Shown here: positions 4,813 through 36,377 of the stretch, piece after piece
How the letters are laid out: every line of letters starts with the position of its first letter
How positions within the stretch are numbered: the first letter of the stretch is position 1
Source: an uncultured Bacteroidales bacterium
Lineage (GTDB): Bacteria; Bacteroidota; Bacteroidia; Bacteroidales; FEN-979
Assembly (NCBI GenBank): GCA_903828645.1
Contig: CAIKNA010000030.1
Location: 1 to 45,338 of the forward strand
Length of the DNA: 45,338 nucleotides
Direction of reading: 5' to 3'
Made by a program: the position numbers and the translations under genes
Notes under the pieces: model-generated
The model's database searches: none
Seen by the model: only the letters and a program-made list of their open reading frames with translations
Told to the model about the DNA's origin: nothing

Positions 4813-5847
4813 TTAGCCGGGGATTCCGGATGACTGGTTTGTAGATATTTCGGTTCGGATCGTGTCGAGCTTAAGGAGCATTGATTTTGTCTCCTCAATA
4901 CTTAGCTGGCGGGTATTGTCAGAATGATACTCTTCCATGACTGAGACCTTCGATTCGCCCTCGGTAAAATATTTCCCGTAATTCAGGTCACGGGTATCCG
5001 CCGGGATGCGAAAATATTCTCCCAGGTCTTCTGCTTTGGCCATCTCTTCTCGGTTCACGAGGGTCTCGTATTTTTTCTCACCATGGCGGGTTCCGATGAT
5101 ACGTACCTCGTGTCCCGCTTTGTAAAGGCCGATGAGGGCATCTGCAAGGATACGGATGGTTGAAGCAGGGGCTTTCTGTACGAACATATCCCCGTTCCGG
5201 CCATATTTAAAGGCATAGATCACAAGGTCAACCGCATCCTCAAGGGTCATCATGAAACGGGTCATCCCTGGATCGGTAATCGTTAGCGGCAATCCTGCTT
5301 TTATCTGTCCGATGAAGAGGGGGATGACCGAACCGCGCGAAGCCATCACGTTGCCATAGCGTGTTCCGCAAAGTACAGTGCCTGTTCCGTCGAGGTTGCG
5401 TGATTTGGCAATCATCACCTTTTCACTCATTGCCTTGGAAATTCCCATGGCATTTACCGGGTAGACGGCCTTGTCGGTACTGAGCACAATTACCTTTGCA
5501 ACACGGTGCAGGATTGCCGAATCGATTACGTTTTCACAGCCGATCACGTTCGTACGGATCGCCTCCATGGGGAAGAATTCACAGGAGGGAACCTGTTTCA
5601 GCGCTGCTGCATGAAACACAAAATCGACTCCCTTCATGGCATTGTCCACACTGCCCCGGTCGCGCACGTCGCCGATGTAGTAGCGGATCTTCGCATCCTT
5701 GTAATGCTGCCGCATGTCATCCTGCTTTTTCTCATCCCGGCTGAAAATACGGATCTCCCGGATGCCGGTAGCAAGATACCTGTTCAGCACAGCATTGCCG
5801 AATGATCCCGTTCCACCTGTAATCAATAAAACTTTGCCCGTGAACAT
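4813..5847 (-). CDS. capE: UDP-GlcNAc 4,6-dehydratase/5-epimerase CapE-like
   Basis: The first enzyme of UDP-L-FucNAc synthesis, an extended SDR. The Rossmann motif GGTGSFGNA is near residue 10 and the catalytic stretch reads MGISKAMSEK, with Met in place of the usual Tyr of YxxxK, as is typical of the FlaA1/CapE class. A longer frame opens upstream at 5946, but the 33 extra residues lie over the end of fcl and look unlike the family. The ATG at 5847 gives 344 residues, close to the length of S. aureus CapE as I recall it, and leaves a 16-bp gap after fcl. The C-terminal part with GTRHGEKKYETLVNREE is typical of the family. Confidence 0.92.
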   Translation of the reverse strand: MFTGKVLLITGGTGSFGNAVLNRYLATGIREIRIFSRDEKKQDDMRQHYKDAKIRYYIGDVRDRGSVDNAMKGVDFVFHAAALKQVPSCEFFPMEAIRTNVIGCENVIDSAILHRVAKVIVLSTDKAVYPVNAMGISKAMSEKVMIAKSRNLDGTGTVLCGTRYGNVMASRGSVIPLFIGQIKAGLPLTITDPGMTRFMMTLEDAVDLVIYAFKYGRNGDMFVQKAPASTIRILADALIGLYKAGHEVRIIGTRHGEKKYETLVNREEMAKAEDLGEYFRIPADTRDLNYGKYFTEGESKVSVMEEYHSDNTRQLSIEETKSMLLKLDTIRTEISTNQSSGIPG

Positions 5848-30724: not shown

Positions 30725-32461
30725 ATGTCGAAAAGTTCGTTGAAAATCAGGGATCTCACCCTGCGTGATGGCCAACAATCCCTCTTTGCCACAAGGATGA
30801 CCCAGGACCAGGTCGACCGGGTCTTACCCTATTTTAAAGATGCCCGTTTTTATGCCATGGAGGTATGGGGTGGAGCTGTTCCCGATTCAATTATGCGCTA
30901 CCTGGCCGAAAACCCGTGGGAACGTCTTGAAAAGATCAAGAAATCGATCGGTGATGTCTCTCTCCTCACGGCTCTTTCGCGTGGACGCAACCTGTTCGGC
31001 TATAATCCTTATCCCGAGGAGGTGATCGAAGGATTCAACCGCCTCGCAGTGAAATCGGGGATCGGCATCATGCGTATTTTTGATGCCCTCAACGATGTGG
31101 ATAATATGAAATCGACGATCAGATACGTCAAACAAAACGGGGGCATTGCCGATTGTGCCATCAGCTTCACTGTTGATCCGAAGTTTTCCACACGGCAAAA
31201 ATTCCGTTCCTGGATCCATTTTAAAGCTTTGCCGCATGATATTTTTACCATCGATTATTTCGTTGAAAAGGCGCGTCAACTGGAAGCGATGGGTGCCGAC
31301 ATGATTTCCATCAAAGACATGGCCGGCCTCATATCTCCATCCCAGACAGGGAAACTCATCAGACGGCTTAAGTCGGAGGTTCGGGTACCGATCGATTTTC
31401 ACACCCATTGCACTCCCGGGTACGGCCTTGCATCCGTATTATCGGCCATTGTAAACGGGGTTGACATCGTAGATACCAACATCTGGAATTTCGCCGGCGG
31501 ACCTGCCGCCCCTGCATATGAACTGATCCATATTTTCTGCGATAAACTGGGCATTGATACCGGTGTAAATCCCGAAGCCATCGTTGCCATAAACAAGGAG
31601 TTGAAAACCATCCGGGAAGAACTTTCAGAATACGATACCTGCAAATCATTCCCGGTTGAATTTGATTTCACGAAAGATAAACTCCCGAAGGAGATCAATA
31701 AACTTTTCGTCAAGGCCATTTACCAGGCAAAACATGACCGGGAAGAAGAACTGTTGTGTACATGTCTTGAAATTGAAGCCTATTTCAATTTCCCCGAACC
31801 TGATATCGCGGTAAAAAACGCTGAGATACCAGGTGGTATGTACACCAACATGCATGCGCAGCTCAAGCAGCTTAAACTTGATCACCTTTTGCCGAGGGTG
31901 CTAGAACTGGTACCGCTTGTACGAATCAAATCGGGCTGCCCTCCGCTGGTCACCCCTACCAGCCAGATCGTTGGCGTTCAGGCGGTAAATTGCGTCATCG
32001 ATGAAAATAAAGACCTGCCCTATTTCACAACGAAATCGATACAATTTGTGAACCTTGTGAAGGGGATTTATGGAAGAACACCAATCCCCGTGGATCCTGA
32101 TTTCAGGGAACAACTCACTGGTGTAAGGGAGGAAACCTCTTATGATACCAAAAATTACAAAAAGCAGGAAAACACCATATTTGAGGAGTACGGCGACATG
32201 AAGCTTGCCGACAACGAAAAAGATGAACTGCTGCTCGAGCTTTTTCCCACTGTTGCCCGCGAATTCCTGCAGAAATGCGTGGAAGATAAATACACCGAAA
32301 ACATCCATCACATCGAGGAGGAGAAACGGCGCAAGGCCAGGGAAGCCAGGGAAGCCTACGAAAGGCTGAGCCCTCAGGAAAAACGGGACAGGCTCATGGA
32401 GGGCCTCTATTCCTGGCACGAGGTTTCTTTTCCTGAAGAGGAAGATCTTGGGAGGTCGTAG
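30725..32461 (+). CDS. pyruvate/oxaloacetate carboxyltransferase subunit (PycB/OadA/5S-like) without biotinyl domain
   Basis: The 578-residue protein has a DRE-TIM carboxyltransferase domain: RDLTLRDGQQSLFATRM at the start, the catalytic carbamylated-Lys-type motif SIKDMAG, and metal-binding HTHCTPG. Then comes the PYC_OADA conserved domain and a charged C-terminal tail (about 525-578). Most OadA/PycB proteins end in a biotinyl domain with AMKM; this one has none, so it would need the separate carrier at 12167. The segment usually written SGGTSQP reads FAGGPAAPAYE here, a notable change near the active site. It could be the 5S part of a transcarboxylase or part of an oxaloacetate decarboxylase. 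Confidence 0.88.
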   Translation: MSKSSLKIRDLTLRDGQQSLFATRMTQDQVDRVLPYFKDARFYAMEVWGGAVPDSIMRYLAENPWERLEKIKKSIGDVSLLTALSRGRNLFGYNPYPEEVIEGFNRLAVKSGIGIMRIFDALNDVDNMKSTIRYVKQNGGIADCAISFTVDPKFSTRQKFRSWIHFKALPHDIFTIDYFVEKARQLEAMGADMISIKDMAGLISPSQTGKLIRRLKSEVRVPIDFHTHCTPGYGLASVLSAIVNGVDIVDTNIWNFAGGPAAPAYELIHIFCDKLGIDTGVNPEAIVAINKELKTIREELSEYDTCKSFPVEFDFTKDKLPKEINKLFVKAIYQAKHDREEELLCTCLEIEAYFNFPEPDIAVKNAEIPGGMYTNMHAQLKQLKLDHLLPRVLELVPLVRIKSGCPPLVTPTSQIVGVQAVNCVIDENKDLPYFTTKSIQFVNLVKGIYGRTPIPVDPDFREQLTGVREETSYDTKNYKKQENTIFEEYGDMKLADNEKDELLLELFPTVAREFLQKCVEDKYTENIHHIEEEKRRKAREAREAYERLSPQEKRDRLMEGLYSWHEVSFPEEEDLGRS

Positions 32462-32630: not shown

Positions 32631-34790
32631 ATGACATTCGAAGACTTTAAGAAAACACACAAATTGCTGGCACAATACAAGTATACCTGGGCCCCCATAG
32701 ATAAAGGTTACAACAACCGTACAGTACACATCAACATCGGAAATCTCAGGGTTACTGAAAAACCGGTAACCCCGGAGATGAAAGAAAAATTCATCGGGGG
32801 TAAGGGATTCGACTTGCGGCTGCTTTGGGATGCCACAAAACCTGAGACCAGGTGGAGTGACCCCGAAAACGAGATCGTCATTTCCGGAGGCCCCTGCTGC
32901 GGTATTACGCAGTATTCCGGTTCAGGAAAAGCCATATGTTGTGCCATCAGTCCGCAAACCGATATTGTTGTCGACTCCAACGTGGGTGGTTTCTTCGGAC
33001 CTTTCCTCAAATTCTGCGGGTTCGATGCATTGGAAATCCAGGGGAAATCGGACCAGGAAATCCTGATTTTTTTCGAGGAAGAGCGTGAAGTGATTGAAAT
33101 TTACGAAGCCGCCGACCTTCCTTCCGACAGCCATGTACTCGCTGAAGAATTGCACGACATGATGGCAATTCCGGGAAATGAAAAGGATAAATACAATGTT
33201 TCGGTTGTTTCTGCCGGCACTGCTGCAGAGCACTCCCTCATCGGGATGCTCAACTTCAGCTTCTACGACATAAAACGGAAAAAAATCCGCCTGAAACAGG
33301 CCGGCCGTGGCGGAATCGGAACCGTACTCCGCGATAAAAAGGTTAAAGCCATCGTTGCCCATGTGAAAACCATCGGCGGAAACCGAAACAACGTGGTGAA
33401 TATGGAAGCCATCCAGGAAAGAGGCAGGACCTTCAACAAGGAGATGCGAGAACTCGACGACAAACAATGCGAAATGCGCTCTAAGGGAACAGCCCACCTC
33501 ACCCTCGTCATGAACGACTATGACCTCCTTCCCGTCAACAATTTCAAATTCGGAAGCCACCCCGATGCCACCAAAATCAGCGGCGATGTGTGGAAATCCT
33601 TTTTCACGCAAAATGTTCCCGACGGATGCTGGGTAGGCTGCAACATGGCCTGCGCAAAAGGGGTCGACAATTATGAACTCCGCTCCGGGCCTTACAAGGG
33701 GGATAAAGTCATCGTTGACGGACCTGAATATGAAACAACCTCTTCGCTGGGCTCCATCGCGGGAATATTCAATCCCGATTTCACCATCGAGGCCAATTTC
33801 TATTGCGATACCTATGGCATCTGTACCATCAGTTGGGGCAGTATTCTCGGTTTTTTGATGGAGTGCTACGAAAACGGCATCCTCAATGAAGAACGCACCG
33901 GCGGACTGAAACTGAATTTCGGGAATGCCGATTCGGCCATGGACCTGCTGCACCTGGTTTCAAAAGGAGAAGGCTTTGGCCTCATAGCAGGGCAGGGAGT
34001 TCATAAAATGAAAGATCTGTTTGCCAAAAACGGATGGGGCGAGGCAGCCTTCATGCAGGATATCGGGATGGAAAACAAAGGTCTTGAATATTCACAATAT
34101 GTTTCCAAGGAGTCGCTGGCACAGCAGGGCGGGTATGCCATGACAAACAAGGGCCCCCAGCATGACGAAGCATGGCTGATCTTCATGGATATGGTGAACA
34201 ACCAGATCCCGACCTTTGAAAAAAAGGCCGAAGCACTTCATTATTTCCCCATGTTCCGCACCTGGTTTGGCCTTGCAGGATTCTGCAAACTTCCGTGGAA
34301 TGACGTCGAACCTGAAGACAACGCACAAACTGCAGAACCGGCCAAAGTGCCTCAGCATGTCGACAACTATGTCACTATATTCAACGCTGTGACTGGTTCG
34401 AATATCGACAAACATGAGATCATCCGGATGTCGGAAAGGGTTTATAACTTCCAGCGCATTTTCAACATCCGCCAGGGCAAGGGTTTGCGCCTTCACGATG
34501 CACAGCCATACCGCGCCTGCGGACCTGTTACCCGCGAAGAATACGAATCACGCGAAGAACGCTATGACAAGCAACTGCTTGAACAGGTTAATTTCAATCC
34601 CGCCGGAAAAACCACCGAAGAGAAGATGAAGGTTTTGCGTGCATACCGCGAAAACCGCTACGAGCAGCTGCTTGACGCCGTTTACGAACGCCGCGGCTGG
34701 ACAAAAAACGGTGTCCCAAAGATCGAACATCTTAAAAAACTCGGCATGGATCTCCCGGAATTGCTTGAAGTGGTGACACCGTTGCAGTAA
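32631..34790 (+). CDS. aldehyde:ferredoxin oxidoreductase family tungsten enzyme
   Basis: The 719-residue protein fits the AOR family. The N-terminal pterin-binding domain (FIGGKGFDLRLLW, SGSGKAICCAISPQTDIVVDSNVGGFFGPFLKFCGFDALEIQGKSD) is followed by a [4Fe-4S] cysteine cluster and a tungstopterin C-terminal domain. The cluster reads C333-x3-C337-x3-C341 (CWVGCNMAC), where classical AOR has C-x2-C-x3-C, with a distal Cys in AGFCKLPW (about 552). It is longer than classical AORs, about 600 residues. It would oxidise an aldehyde or reduce an acid, or act as another AOR-like activity such as BamB. No ferredoxin-like partner gene adjoins. Tungstate import genes lie 6 kb downstream. Confidence 0.88.
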   Translation: MTFEDFKKTHKLLAQYKYTWAPIDKGYNNRTVHINIGNLRVTEKPVTPEMKEKFIGGKGFDLRLLWDATKPETRWSDPENEIVISGGPCCGITQYSGSGKAICCAISPQTDIVVDSNVGGFFGPFLKFCGFDALEIQGKSDQEILIFFEEEREVIEIYEAADLPSDSHVLAEELHDMMAIPGNEKDKYNVSVVSAGTAAEHSLIGMLNFSFYDIKRKKIRLKQAGRGGIGTVLRDKKVKAIVAHVKTIGGNRNNVVNMEAIQERGRTFNKEMRELDDKQCEMRSKGTAHLTLVMNDYDLLPVNNFKFGSHPDATKISGDVWKSFFTQNVPDGCWVGCNMACAKGVDNYELRSGPYKGDKVIVDGPEYETTSSLGSIAGIFNPDFTIEANFYCDTYGICTISWGSILGFLMECYENGILNEERTGGLKLNFGNADSAMDLLHLVSKGEGFGLIAGQGVHKMKDLFAKNGWGEAAFMQDIGMENKGLEYSQYVSKESLAQQGGYAMTNKGPQHDEAWLIFMDMVNNQIPTFEKKAEALHYFPMFRTWFGLAGFCKLPWNDVEPEDNAQTAEPAKVPQHVDNYVTIFNAVTGSNIDKHEIIRMSERVYNFQRIFNIRQGKGLRLHDAQPYRACGPVTREEYESREERYDKQLLEQVNFNPAGKTTEEKMKVLRAYRENRYEQLLDAVYERRGWTKNGVPKIEHLKKLGMDLPELLEVVTPLQ

Positions 34791-34828: not shown

Positions 34829-34836
34829 TATGTTTG
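34829..34836 (+). promoter_or_regulatory. -7 box of the trpB2 leader
   Basis: TATGTTTG matches TAnnTTTG and lies 33 bp before the leader-peptide ATG at 34870. The best -33 candidate is TTG at 34809-34811, with a short 17-bp spacer. Transcription would begin near 34843. Confidence 0.5.
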
Positions 34837-34869
34837 CATCCTGTTTAGAAAAGATATAAATAACATCCG

Positions 34870-34935
34870 ATGAACGGCAGATACAATTCAACTCTTAACT
34901 TTTTTTGGTGGCGCCCTGTAATAAACAGCGCGTAA
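34870..34935 (+). CDS. trpL: trp leader peptide with tandem Trp codons
   Basis: A 21-codon open frame, ATG at 34870 and TAA at 34933-34935. It reads MNGRYNST, then LNFFWW, then RPVINSA. Two adjacent TGG codons (34906-34911) preceded by two Phe codons are very unlikely by chance in so short a frame right upstream of a tryptophan synthase gene. It would act as the sensor of charged tRNA-Trp: a ribosome stalled on the TGG pair covers pairing segment 1, while a ribosome at the stop codon covers segment 2. Its stop codon lies immediately after segment 2, as in enteric trp attenuators. No Shine-Dalgarno is evident, as is normal for this phylum. Confidence 0.75.
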   Translation: MNGRYNSTLNFFWWRPVINSA

Positions 34936-35004
34936 ACATCAAAGTTTTCCTTATCTGAAAAAATCACTGAAAGGCTTGCTGTTTACAAACGGCAGGCCTT
35001 TTTT
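34912..35004 (+). promoter_or_regulatory. ribosome-mediated attenuator: alternative pairings in the trpB2 leader
   Basis: Segment 1 (CTGT at 34916-34919 with GCG before it) can pair with segment 2 (ACAG at 34925-34928 and CGC after it), the 1:2 hairpin. Segment 2, as TAAACAGCG (34922-34930), can instead pair with segment 3, inside TTGCTGTTTA (34977-34985): eight Watson-Crick pairs plus one G-U, the antiterminator. Segment 3 can alternatively pair with segment 4 (AACGGCAG onward, 34988-35001) in the terminator. The three pairings are mutually exclusive. With Trp scarce, stalling favours 2:3 and read-through; with Trp plentiful, 3:4 terminates. Confidence 0.7.
34970..35004 (+). terminator. intrinsic terminator 1 in the trpB2 leader
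   Basis: AAAGGCTTGCTGTT (34970-34983), loop TACA, AACGGCAGGCCTTT (34988-35001), then a T-run to 35004. The stem is 14 pairs with two G-U wobbles. It is the 3:4 hairpin of the attenuator. Confidence 0.8.
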
Positions 35005-35018
35005 CATTGTACATGGAT

Positions 35019-35050
35019 GGCTTGCCGGCAAAATGGCAGGCCTTTTTTTT
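35019..35050 (+). terminator. intrinsic terminator 2 in the trpB2 leader
   Basis: GGCTTGCC (35019-35026), 8-nt loop, GGCAGGCC (35035-35042), then eight T (35043-35050). Eight pairs with one G-U. Its arms repeat those of terminator 1, as if the terminator had been duplicated. It ends 20 bp before the trpB2 ATG. Confidence 0.75.
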
Positions 35051-35069
35051 AACCTTAAAAACAAAAACC

Positions 35070-36377
35070 ATGACAAAAAACAGAAGAATTCAATTGAGCG
35101 AATGCGACATGCCGAAACAATGGTACAATATTCAGGCAGACATGCCAAATCCTTTGCTTCCATTGCTGCACCCCGGAACCAGAGAGCCCATCCGGCCCGG
35201 TGACCTTGAACCATTGTTTCCTATGGCGCTAATCGAGCAGGAGGTATCCACCGAACGTTTTATCGACATTCCTGATGAAGTGCTCGACCTATACAGGCTA
35301 TATCGCCCCACCCCGTTGCACCGGGCCTATAATCTTGAGAAAATGCTCGACACTCCGGCAAAGATCTATTACAAGAATGAAAGCGTCAGCCCTCCCGGCT
35401 CGCATAAACCCAACACCGCAATTCCGCAGGCTTATTACAATTATAAACAGGGAGTCAAGAAAATGACGACAGAAACCGGGGCCGGACAATGGGGCAGCGC
35501 CCTGAGTTTTGCCACCAATTTTTTCGGCATCGAATGCAAGGTTTTCATGGTAAAGGTGAGCTATCACCAGAAACCATACAGGAAATCAATGATAAATTTG
35601 TGGAACGGATCGGTGATTCCATCCCCCAGCATGGAGACCAATGCCGGGCGAGCCTTCCTCGCCGAAGATCCAGATTGTCCCGGAAGCCTTGGTGTGGCAA
35701 TATCTGAAGCGATTGAAGTTGCCGCGACGAATGATGACACCAAGTATTCGCTGGGAAGCGTGCTGAACCATGTTTTACTTCATCAGACGATCATCGGACT
35801 GGAAACAGTCAGACAGCTTGAGATGACGGGCGATTTCCCCGACCTGGTGATCGGCCCTTTCGGAGGTGGCTCAAATTTCGGGGGGTTATCCTTCCCATTT
35901 CTGAGATACAATTTTACGGAAGGGAAGAAGACCCGGTGCATTGCCGTTGAATCTTCTTCATGCCCCAAACTGACCCATGGGAAATTTGAATACGATTTCG
36001 GGGATACAGCGGGCATGACCCCGCTTATTCCGATGTACACGCTGGGCCACAAGTTTATTCCTCCCGCCATACATGCCGGGGGGTTGCGGTACCACGGGGC
36101 TGGGGCCATTGTTAGCCAGCTGCTTAAAGACAACCTGATTGAAGCCCGCTCGGTCGATCAGGTCGAAAGTTTTGAAGCTGCGGTCACCTTTGCGCGTGCG
36201 GAGGGGATGATACCCGCTCCTGAAACAGCTCACGCCATTGCCCAGGCAATTAAGGAGGCAAACATTGCAAAGGAAGAAGGCGTTGCAAAGACAATCCTTT
36301 TTAATTTTTCCGGACATGGATTGCTGGACATGGGAGCCTATGATGAATATTTTGCAAAAAAATTGAAGGTGCTATAA
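35070..36377 (+). CDS. trpB: tryptophan synthase beta chain, TrpB2 type, standalone
   Basis: The 435-residue PLP enzyme makes tryptophan from indole and serine. The N-terminus and length mark it as the longer TrpB2 class: [16 protein letters not shown], the PLP Lys in [22 protein letters not shown], the phosphate-binding [11 protein letters not shown], and [15 protein letters not shown] at the end. No trpA or other trp gene is adjacent, so it may use indole from other sources. The frame opens in-phase at 35007, but that segment runs over terminator 2; the ATG at 35070 starts the family sequence [11 protein letters not shown]. Control is by the Trp-codon attenuator just upstream. Confidence 0.95.

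Follow-up and report, generated by a model that had tools for sequence, protein, structure and literature searches.

The DNA stretch considered here, hereafter the window, comprises 45,338 nucleotides of contig CAIKNA010000030.1 (assembly GCA_903828645.1) from an uncultured Bacteroidales bacterium. At positions 35070-36377 of its forward strand it carries trpB2, a gene encoding a stand-alone TrpB-like, pyridoxal phosphate (PLP)-dependent enzyme of 435 amino acids, preceded on the same strand by a short leader region with the features of a tryptophan (Trp)-codon transcription attenuator. With TIGR01415 the TrpB2 protein reaches 641.5 bits (cut-off 518.85), and with NF009057 it reaches 709.9 bits (cut-off 366); the solved chains nearest to it by sequence, 6hul_B, 4qys_B and 6hte_B, bear the name tryptophan synthase beta chain 1 or 2. 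The gene stands outside any trp operon, one neighbour encoding an aldehyde ferredoxin oxidoreductase, the other an outer-membrane protein. A first-pass annotation, made from the sequence alone, had proposed the attenuator, and this proposal is confirmed here: a leader with adjacent Trp codons (WW) followed by a terminator occurs in front of trpB2 genes far more often than in chance controls, and it is kept in all sampled genomes of the genus that have TrpB2.

The element opens with a -7 box, TATGTTTG (34829-34836), which can be read directly in the sequence and fits TAnnTTTG, which we take to be the -7 consensus of the Bacteroidota type. A leader open reading frame (ORF) at 34870-34935 encodes the 21-residue peptide MNGRYNSTLNFFWWRPVINSA, with the regulatory Trp codons TGG TGG at 34906-34911 and the stop codon at 34933-34935. 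Before trpB2 lies the intrinsic terminator T1 (34969-35004), formed by the pairing of segments 3 and 4 (3:4) in a 15-pair stem at 34969-35002 and a U-run, and paired in 118/120 cells of an alignment of 8 genomes. Box, tandem-TGG leader and 3:4 terminator, all part of the first-pass annotation, were each located in the sequence. The leader region is much more stable than shuffled sequences (folding z = -5.4; none of 200 shuffles equally stable).

The alternative stems of the element required more revision. The 1:2 or protector hairpin spans 34904-34943, its 5′ arm (segment 1, 34904-34919) including the Trp codons and its 3′ arm (34925-34943) burying segment 2; folds, the genus alignment and covariation support both arms. 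In the window fold it consists of UUUGGUG:CAUCAAA, GCGC:GCGU and CUGU:ACAG, the UUUGGUG at its base containing bases of the Trp codons. The hairpin previously proposed thus exists, but the CTGT/ACAG pairing taken for the whole of it is merely the tip of this larger stem. Segment 2 in its conserved register, GTAAACA (34932-34938), pairs in 56/56 cells with segment 3, TGTTTAC (34980-34986), which lies loop-proximal in the 5′ arm of T1 and is supported by the genus alignment and by other families; GTAAACA-like segments were also found again in several of the latter. The 2:3 pairing suggested earlier, between TAAACAGCG (34922-34930) and 34977-34985, is present and is the better one when the window is folded alone, but it is paired in only 59/72 cells in the genus; it was therefore rejected as the conserved register and is regarded as a window-specific alternative. 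The leader stop codon, which had been placed directly after segment 2, lies instead inside the conserved segment 2, so that a ribosome completing the leader would cover this segment. Downstream of T1 there is a second intrinsic terminator with its own U-run, T2 (5:6, 35018-35050), which was absent from the earlier description and is paired in 71/72 cells over the 8 genomes, the remaining cell being a gap.

Folding of the RNA as a growing chain shows how these stems could exchange. In nascent RNA free of ribosomes, the 1:2 hairpin forms first and T1 follows. When the RNA is masked up to 34921, as by a ribosome standing on the Trp codons, the 2:3 pairing in the 34922-34930 register is best until the RNA reaches about 34996, and thereafter T1 takes over.

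Conservation of the element was followed in 43 sampled genomes of the family, 19 of them from the window's genus. TrpB2 is encoded in 8 of these, all of that genus (the window genome and those of loci L001-L007, each counted once). In all 8 the leader is a gapless frame of 22 codons including the stop, starting with ATG or GTG, ending with TAA and containing two or three consecutive TGG codons (4 of the 7 relatives have three); L006 and L007 have a further in-frame start upstream, and for them the start that aligns was used. According to the first-pass annotation, orthologous leaders without the frame, without the TGG pair or without the alternative stems would refute the proposal; the 7 other TrpB2 genomes of the genus all keep the frame, the TGG pair, T1 and the antiterminator (2:3). 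The 1:2 hairpin is paired in 103/120 cells, and its columns 49:57 in the alignment show a compensatory GC/UA change; its tip switches between G-C and U-A, with two rows unpaired. In T2 a single compensatory change is seen, in L005, where U-A replaces C-G. Taken together, 1:2, T1 and T2 give a covariation score of 0.108, above that of 500/500 shuffles and of every slid control, and their paired cells exceed those of 499/500 shuffles. Note also that TrpB2 is present in 8/19 genus genomes and indole-3-glycerol phosphate synthase (IGPS, TrpC) in none of the 43 family genomes, from which it follows that trpB2 and its attenuator were gained or lost within the genus.

Leaders of this kind are not confined to the genus. 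When titled genome contigs were scanned with the TrpB2 protein, 78 loci came up, sorted by title into 32 from Bacteroidota, 45 Desulfobacterota-like ones and 1 other, one of the Bacteroidota loci having too little upstream DNA to be used. A short WW-containing ORF and then a terminator, within 350 nt upstream, precede trpB2 at 24/31 Bacteroidota loci, at 1/45 Desulfobacterota-like loci and at 0/1 of the remaining kind. The control upstreams of other ORFs (from the non-Desulfobacterota loci and the window) contained it in 2/327 cases, and the products of an approximate dinucleotide shuffler in 0/640.

A second sample, of 295 genomes drawn evenly from the order, held TrpB2 over the cut-off in 104; the upstream region was read for 103 of these, the remaining gene being partial. 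By a strict W-cluster rule, 31/103 have leader and terminator, and 7 more have a leader without a detected terminator. A relaxed rule, which accepts two W within 4 residues and thereby also catches WxW leaders, gives 39/103 against 13/578 control upstreams; this rule was devised after the tryptophanase result described below. The layout is present in many families of the order, and a similar one is found in the culturable relatives Butyricimonas (L012) and Odoribacter (L017). The Trp pattern depends on the family (WW, WWW, WWWW, WRWRW, WCW or WHW; L092, L095, L124, L129, L132, L133, L150, L152 and L155), as if the Trp codons had been tuned, or had drifted, in how many there are and how they are spaced. 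Two loci, L008 and L011, carry a different W-rich leader type (NWRGWRRW and NWRGWHR) before trpB2, upstream of position 5001 in each, with no terminator detected, and their control may be translational or Rho-dependent.

Leaders with W clusters also precede 18 of 30 trpE-like genes (L199-L228), 15 of the 18 with a detected terminator; these 30 genes are the best-scoring ones of a 119-genome sample, with 408-441 bits for TIGR00564, below its cut-off of 517.7. From such comparisons, Trp attenuation looks like a general habit in the order, one shared by trpB2. The trpE-like genes and trpB2 have the W-cluster leader in common, but the former belong to the de novo pathway and have no counterpart in the window genome.

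The ability of such leaders to form an antiterminator was assessed in 59 of them (33 from the order sample and 26 from the titled loci), all preselected for leader and terminator and including two identical ones, L017 and L138. The stretch between the Trp codons and the terminator pairs with the terminator's 5′ arm better than dinucleotide shuffles do, with a mean z of -2.18 and p < 0.05 in 36/59 leaders. When the leaders are grouped into 31 sequence clusters, the mean z is -1.66, with p < 0.05 in 14/31 and a Wilcoxon p of 1e-7. A reversed arm, used as a control, departs from its shuffles by a mean of just -0.27 kcal/mol. In addition, a TAnnTTTG box lies ≤70 nt 5′ of the leader start in 46/59 leaders, against 2.8 expected from mononucleotide shuffles.

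The gene that follows the element is the only tryptophan synthase gene detected in its genome, which is estimated to be 100% complete and 4.57% contaminated. No match was found there for TrpA or for IGPS/TrpC, and the window gene is the sole TIGR01415 match, which speaks against a canonical TrpB, since that protein should give a second match. The 7 other matches to the PALP family have cysteine synthase, threonine synthase or hydroxyaspartate/threonine dehydratase as their best models, and in none is the best model a TrpB. The search for TrpE was likewise negative, the sole chorismate-binding enzyme of the genome passing the aminodeoxychorismate synthase model NF005486 instead (397.5 bits, cut-off 275). 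The description of this TrpB2 as standing alone thus holds genome-wide for the absence of TrpA, TrpC, TrpE and canonical TrpB, whereas TrpD and TrpF were not searched.

The same genome does encode the tryptophan-degrading enzyme tryptophanase, TnaA. One gene (L233, 1548-2921) reaches 865.2 bits with the equivalog model NF053783 (cut-off 750), and a second copy (L234), cut by the contig end, has 638 bits. No TnaC-type leader with Trp codons was seen in the 231 bases before the first tnaA that were read by eye. Tryptophanase-like genes are present in 19/19 genomes of the genus, all of them falling short of the cut-off set for the E. coli-type model.

In the order sample, the presence of tryptophanase follows that of the leader. 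It was sought in 80 of the 103 TrpB2 genomes, namely all 38 without TrpA (TrpA-) and the first 42 of the 65 with it (TrpA+). Identity, tree and NCBIfam served to classify the matches that exceed about 650 bits, together with a fragment of 423 bits and four lower matches; the NF009709 score was rejected as a criterion on its own, since tyrosine phenol-lyases and another clade overlap with TnaA in score. This gave TnaA in 36 of the 80 genomes, 22 of which were run on the equivalog model and all passed it, while the other 14 were assigned by 65-80% identity and the tree. Excluded were G072 (ambiguous), G230 (a tyrosine phenol-lyase) and a group at about 570-594 bits, of which G268, G064, G247 and G142 were checked and the others were excluded by score only. 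Two fragments from leaderless genomes, G162 and G137, are unclassified and were counted as no TnaA, and the fragment of G013 is TnaA by identity. On this basis, TnaA is present in 23/29 genomes with leader and terminator versus 13/51 others (p 5e-6). With any leader, with or without terminator, the figures are 30/36 versus 6/44 (p 2e-10). By family majority they are 14/18 versus 8/27 (leader and terminator, p 0.002) and 18/22 versus 4/23 (any leader, p 2e-5). The any-leader association holds inside the TrpA- genomes (18/21 versus 3/17) as well as the TrpA+ genomes (12/15 versus 3/27), and once the relaxed rule is included, the only TnaA genomes without a leader of any kind are G252 and G139. 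The leader calls preceded the TnaA search and the pooling to any leader was decided afterwards, so that 23/29 versus 13/51 is the cleanest count. The absence of TrpA was considered as the main correlate of the leader and set aside as weaker than TnaA (17/38 TrpA- versus 14/65 TrpA+, p 0.016).

The enteric trp attenuator, as in E. coli trpL, combines tandem Trp codons, alternative 1:2, 2:3 and 3:4 stems and a U-tailed terminator with a stop codon positioned so that the ribosome covers segment 2. The window element follows this enteric logic, as the first-pass annotation had claimed: a leader ORF with tandem codons, a terminator, an antiterminator at the stop region and a protector 1:2 hairpin are all found, the opening of 1:2 being a result of the folding model. 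The resemblance to trpL and to the Rfam family RF00513 (Trp_leader) extends to the three alternative stems, the U-tailed terminator and the stop codon over segment 2, although the gathering score of RF00513 is not reached in the window (14.5 bits versus 41, E 2.4, aligned at 34900-35005). The element differs from the enteric one in its target, a lone trpB2, in having its Trp codons within 1:2, in its second terminator and in its Bacteroidota-type promoter box.

We therefore consider it very probable, judging from sequence and comparison, that a classical ribosome-mediated Trp attenuator precedes trpB2 and turns on the salvage of indole when charged tRNA-Trp falls. Transcription would start just past the -7 box, and the leader would be translated by a ribosome. 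With charged tRNA-Trp at hand, this ribosome would proceed to the stop codon and cover segment 2, leaving 3:4 (T1) and 5:6 (T2) to form and transcription to stop before trpB2. On a leader without a ribosome, the 1:2 hairpin would hide segment 2 and termination would follow likewise. When tRNA-Trp is uncharged, the ribosome would stall at TGG TGG, opening 1:2 and freeing segment 2, which could then pair with the emerging segment 3, so that T1 fails and trpB2 is expressed. The enzyme itself would make tryptophan from indole and serine or phosphoserine. Indole is the likely substrate because the genome encodes a tryptophanase and because leader and TnaA co-occur in the order; it could be supplied externally or be released by the cell's own tryptophanase, and would be recaptured only under tryptophan shortage. 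Control of this indole-to-tryptophan salvage is the most likely role of the attenuator.

The second terminator complicates this scheme. Since the 3′ parts of T1 and T2 are nearly identical, segment 4 (CGGCAGGCC, 34990-34998) can pair not only with segment 3 but also with segment 5 (GGCTTGCCG, 35019-35027), the 5′ arm of T2, as seen in folds and in the alignment, where 4:5 is paired in 66/72 cells. It is conceivable, and we put it forward tentatively, that segment 4, once freed by 2:3, captures segment 5 and disarms T2, so that one ribosome decision would govern both terminators. T2 with its compensatory change is conserved in 8/8 genomes and 8 of the 9 pairs of 4:5 exist in all 8; when 2:3 is forced in the window, in either register, 4:5 forms and 5:6 is lost, and the synthesis of segment 5 before segment 6 should favour 4:5 kinetically. 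With 2:3 forced across the genus, however, 4:5 is the best fold in just 2/8 genomes (the window included) and nearly equal in 1, 5:6 winning in the other 5, so that 4:5 was discarded as a general thermodynamic state. The 4:5 match may also merely reflect that T1 and T2 are near-copies, and the other families examined appear to have a single terminator. T2 may thus be a plain back-up terminator.

A still more speculative extension, which we would rank below the linkage of the two terminators, is that in Bacteroidales TnaA and the attenuated TrpB2 form a reversible couple. TnaA would free indole when tryptophan is plentiful and the Trp-codon leader would open TrpB2 for its recovery when tRNA-Trp is empty, indole serving as an external tryptophan reserve in organisms that have lost the pathway. 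The genus leader would be a six-segment chain in which one stall disarms two terminators.

Several results weigh against the attenuator and its proposed role. The first of them is energetic: the equilibrium fold of the full-length RNA favours T1 even with a stalled ribosome. Equilibrium folding behind a masked ribosome was abandoned as a model of antitermination, the nascent-chain folds alone being successful. Because T1 wins at equilibrium, the switch would have to be kinetic, and known attenuators do work kinetically. In the antiterminator test, the window's own 2:3 pairing taken alone has p 0.07 and that of L001 p 0.20. T2 would stop transcription of trpB2 unless it is passed as well. In the 2:3 and 3:4 stems, where the first-pass annotation had advised looking for compensatory changes, 2:3 is invariant and T1 nearly so across the genus, so that neither carries much covariation information. 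Two of the five covariation measures are unremarkable, pairs changed on both sides being matched by 26/500 shuffles and further pair types by 126/500. In the order sample, 72/103 TrpB2 genes by the strict rule and 64/103 by the relaxed one are without leader and terminator. As regards tryptophanase, 8 genomes have the leader without TnaA (G006, G041, G255, G268, G072 and G228, with G068 and G176 added under the relaxed rule), kinship was handled by family majority only in the leader/TnaA statistics, and the 19/19 genus genomes with a tryptophanase-like gene include just 8 with TrpB2.

The rival explanation that survives best accepts a real, tRNA-Trp-responsive attenuator and gives TrpB2 another substrate, so that it might for instance deaminate serine or synthesize an indole derivative and be co-regulated with tryptophan shortage without serving salvage; we regard it as unlikely. 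It can draw on the designation of TIGR01415 as a 'hypothetical equivalog', and on a 2007 paper whose accessible text mentions a hypothesised serine deaminase role and describes the lone trpB2o of P. horikoshii as being without an identified function (PMC1854888). The same text, however, reports TrpB2o of S. solfataricus and T. maritima to be poor serine deaminases (PMC1854888), and TrpB1 and TrpB2 of T. kodakarensis are cited in connection with indole salvage in the available part of another (PMC11085991). Trp-codon control in many families, together with the co-occurrence of TnaA, is best fitted by a tryptophan-making role.

Much less probable is a reading in which the terminators are ordinary ones that end the transcript of the aldehyde ferredoxin oxidoreductase, a Trp-rich ORF having arisen there by chance. 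The oxidoreductase gene (32631-34790) does lie directly upstream, ending 179 nt before T1, and it adjoins trpB2 upstream in 4/7 relatives; in a fifth, L004, it is likewise upstream, at a distance of about 2.1 kb. A conserved promoter box nevertheless separates it from the leader, L006 and L007 keep leader, T1 and T2 although the oxidoreductase is absent from their 5 kb flank, and the chance controls on leader plus terminator and on the antiterminator contradict this explanation. That a riboswitch, T-box or TRAP-type element senses tryptophan directly, by analogy with the T-box or TRAP control of Firmicutes tryptophan genes, is the least credible of all, as no Rfam family reaches its gathering score in the window (the best sub-threshold match is PyrR, 27.7 bits versus 54) and such elements need no conserved leader ORF with Trp codons.

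Returning to Trp attenuation as the preferred reading, its mechanism is already known, and it is the target gene, the phylum, the link to tryptophanase and the tandem terminator that look new. A literature search covering few subscription papers found, in the texts available, no Trp attenuator described ahead of trpB2 and none described from Bacteroidota. According to the accessible part of a 2010 survey, its authors knew of leader-peptide systems only from Proteobacteria and Actinobacteria until they added their own case from Firmicutes (PMC2965389). Leader-like small ORFs have been reported in B. thetaiotaomicron, in a text whose available portion does not contain the words 'tryptophan' or 'trp' (PMC7366714). 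Leader genes have been surveyed elsewhere (PMC4833913, available in part), and the variants of the tryptophan pathway listed in the excerpted text of PMC9026213 do not include a TrpB2-only type. The statement of the first-pass annotation that such leaders are little described in this phylum agrees with this search, and yet the arrangement itself is common there, before trpB2 as well as before trpE-like genes.

Among characterized systems, one close in gene content is TrpB2o, whose gene lies outside the trp operon and which in P. horikoshii is encoded by a single, stand-alone trpB2o with no other trp gene, as far as the accessible text shows (PMC1854888). The window differs from that case, as there described, in having a tryptophanase in the genome and a Trp-codon attenuator, which constitutes regulatory evidence for a role in tryptophan supply. 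Salvage of exogenous indole by TrpB-type enzymes has been discussed for Bifidobacterium and Thermococcus; in Bifidobacterium TrpB is fused to TrpC, and Trp-leader control of a lone TrpB2 is not mentioned in the part of this paper that is available (PMC11085991). More than one regulatory unit per leader is likewise found in Salmonella mgtCBR, where, in the excerpt available, two short ORFs are involved (PMC3641672), as opposed to one ORF with two terminators here.

That the cell treats TrpB2 as a source of tryptophan is thus indicated by independent evidence, a Trp-codon attenuator that evolution has tested. Indole, usually viewed as an end product, may then be taken back by the same bacterium. 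The results also imply that classical leader-peptide attenuation is common in Bacteroidales, and they add a possible two-terminator design to it.

An RNA model of the attenuator was run on the 43 family genomes and gave 8 strong matches (95-103 bits), all 5′ of trpB2, and some match at E up to 1 in 24/43 genomes. Strict filters were used, and among the strong matches no further attenuator-controlled gene was seen. Two weaker matches were inspected, of 35 bits in G319 and 25 bits in G314, and both turned out to be terminators 3′ of other genes.

We also note two features upstream of the element. Aldehydes that arise when amino acids are degraded can be substrates of aldehyde ferredoxin oxidoreductases, and the oxidoreductase gene next to trpB2 was for a time considered as its partner; its position directly upstream in no more than the 4 relatives mentioned led us to reject this idea. 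Further upstream, at 30725-32461, the window encodes a protein of 578 residues with HMGL-like and PYC_OADA domains, which scores 399.6 against a cut-off of 402 for pyruvate carboxylase subunit B (NF006761) and falls far under the cut-offs of other models.

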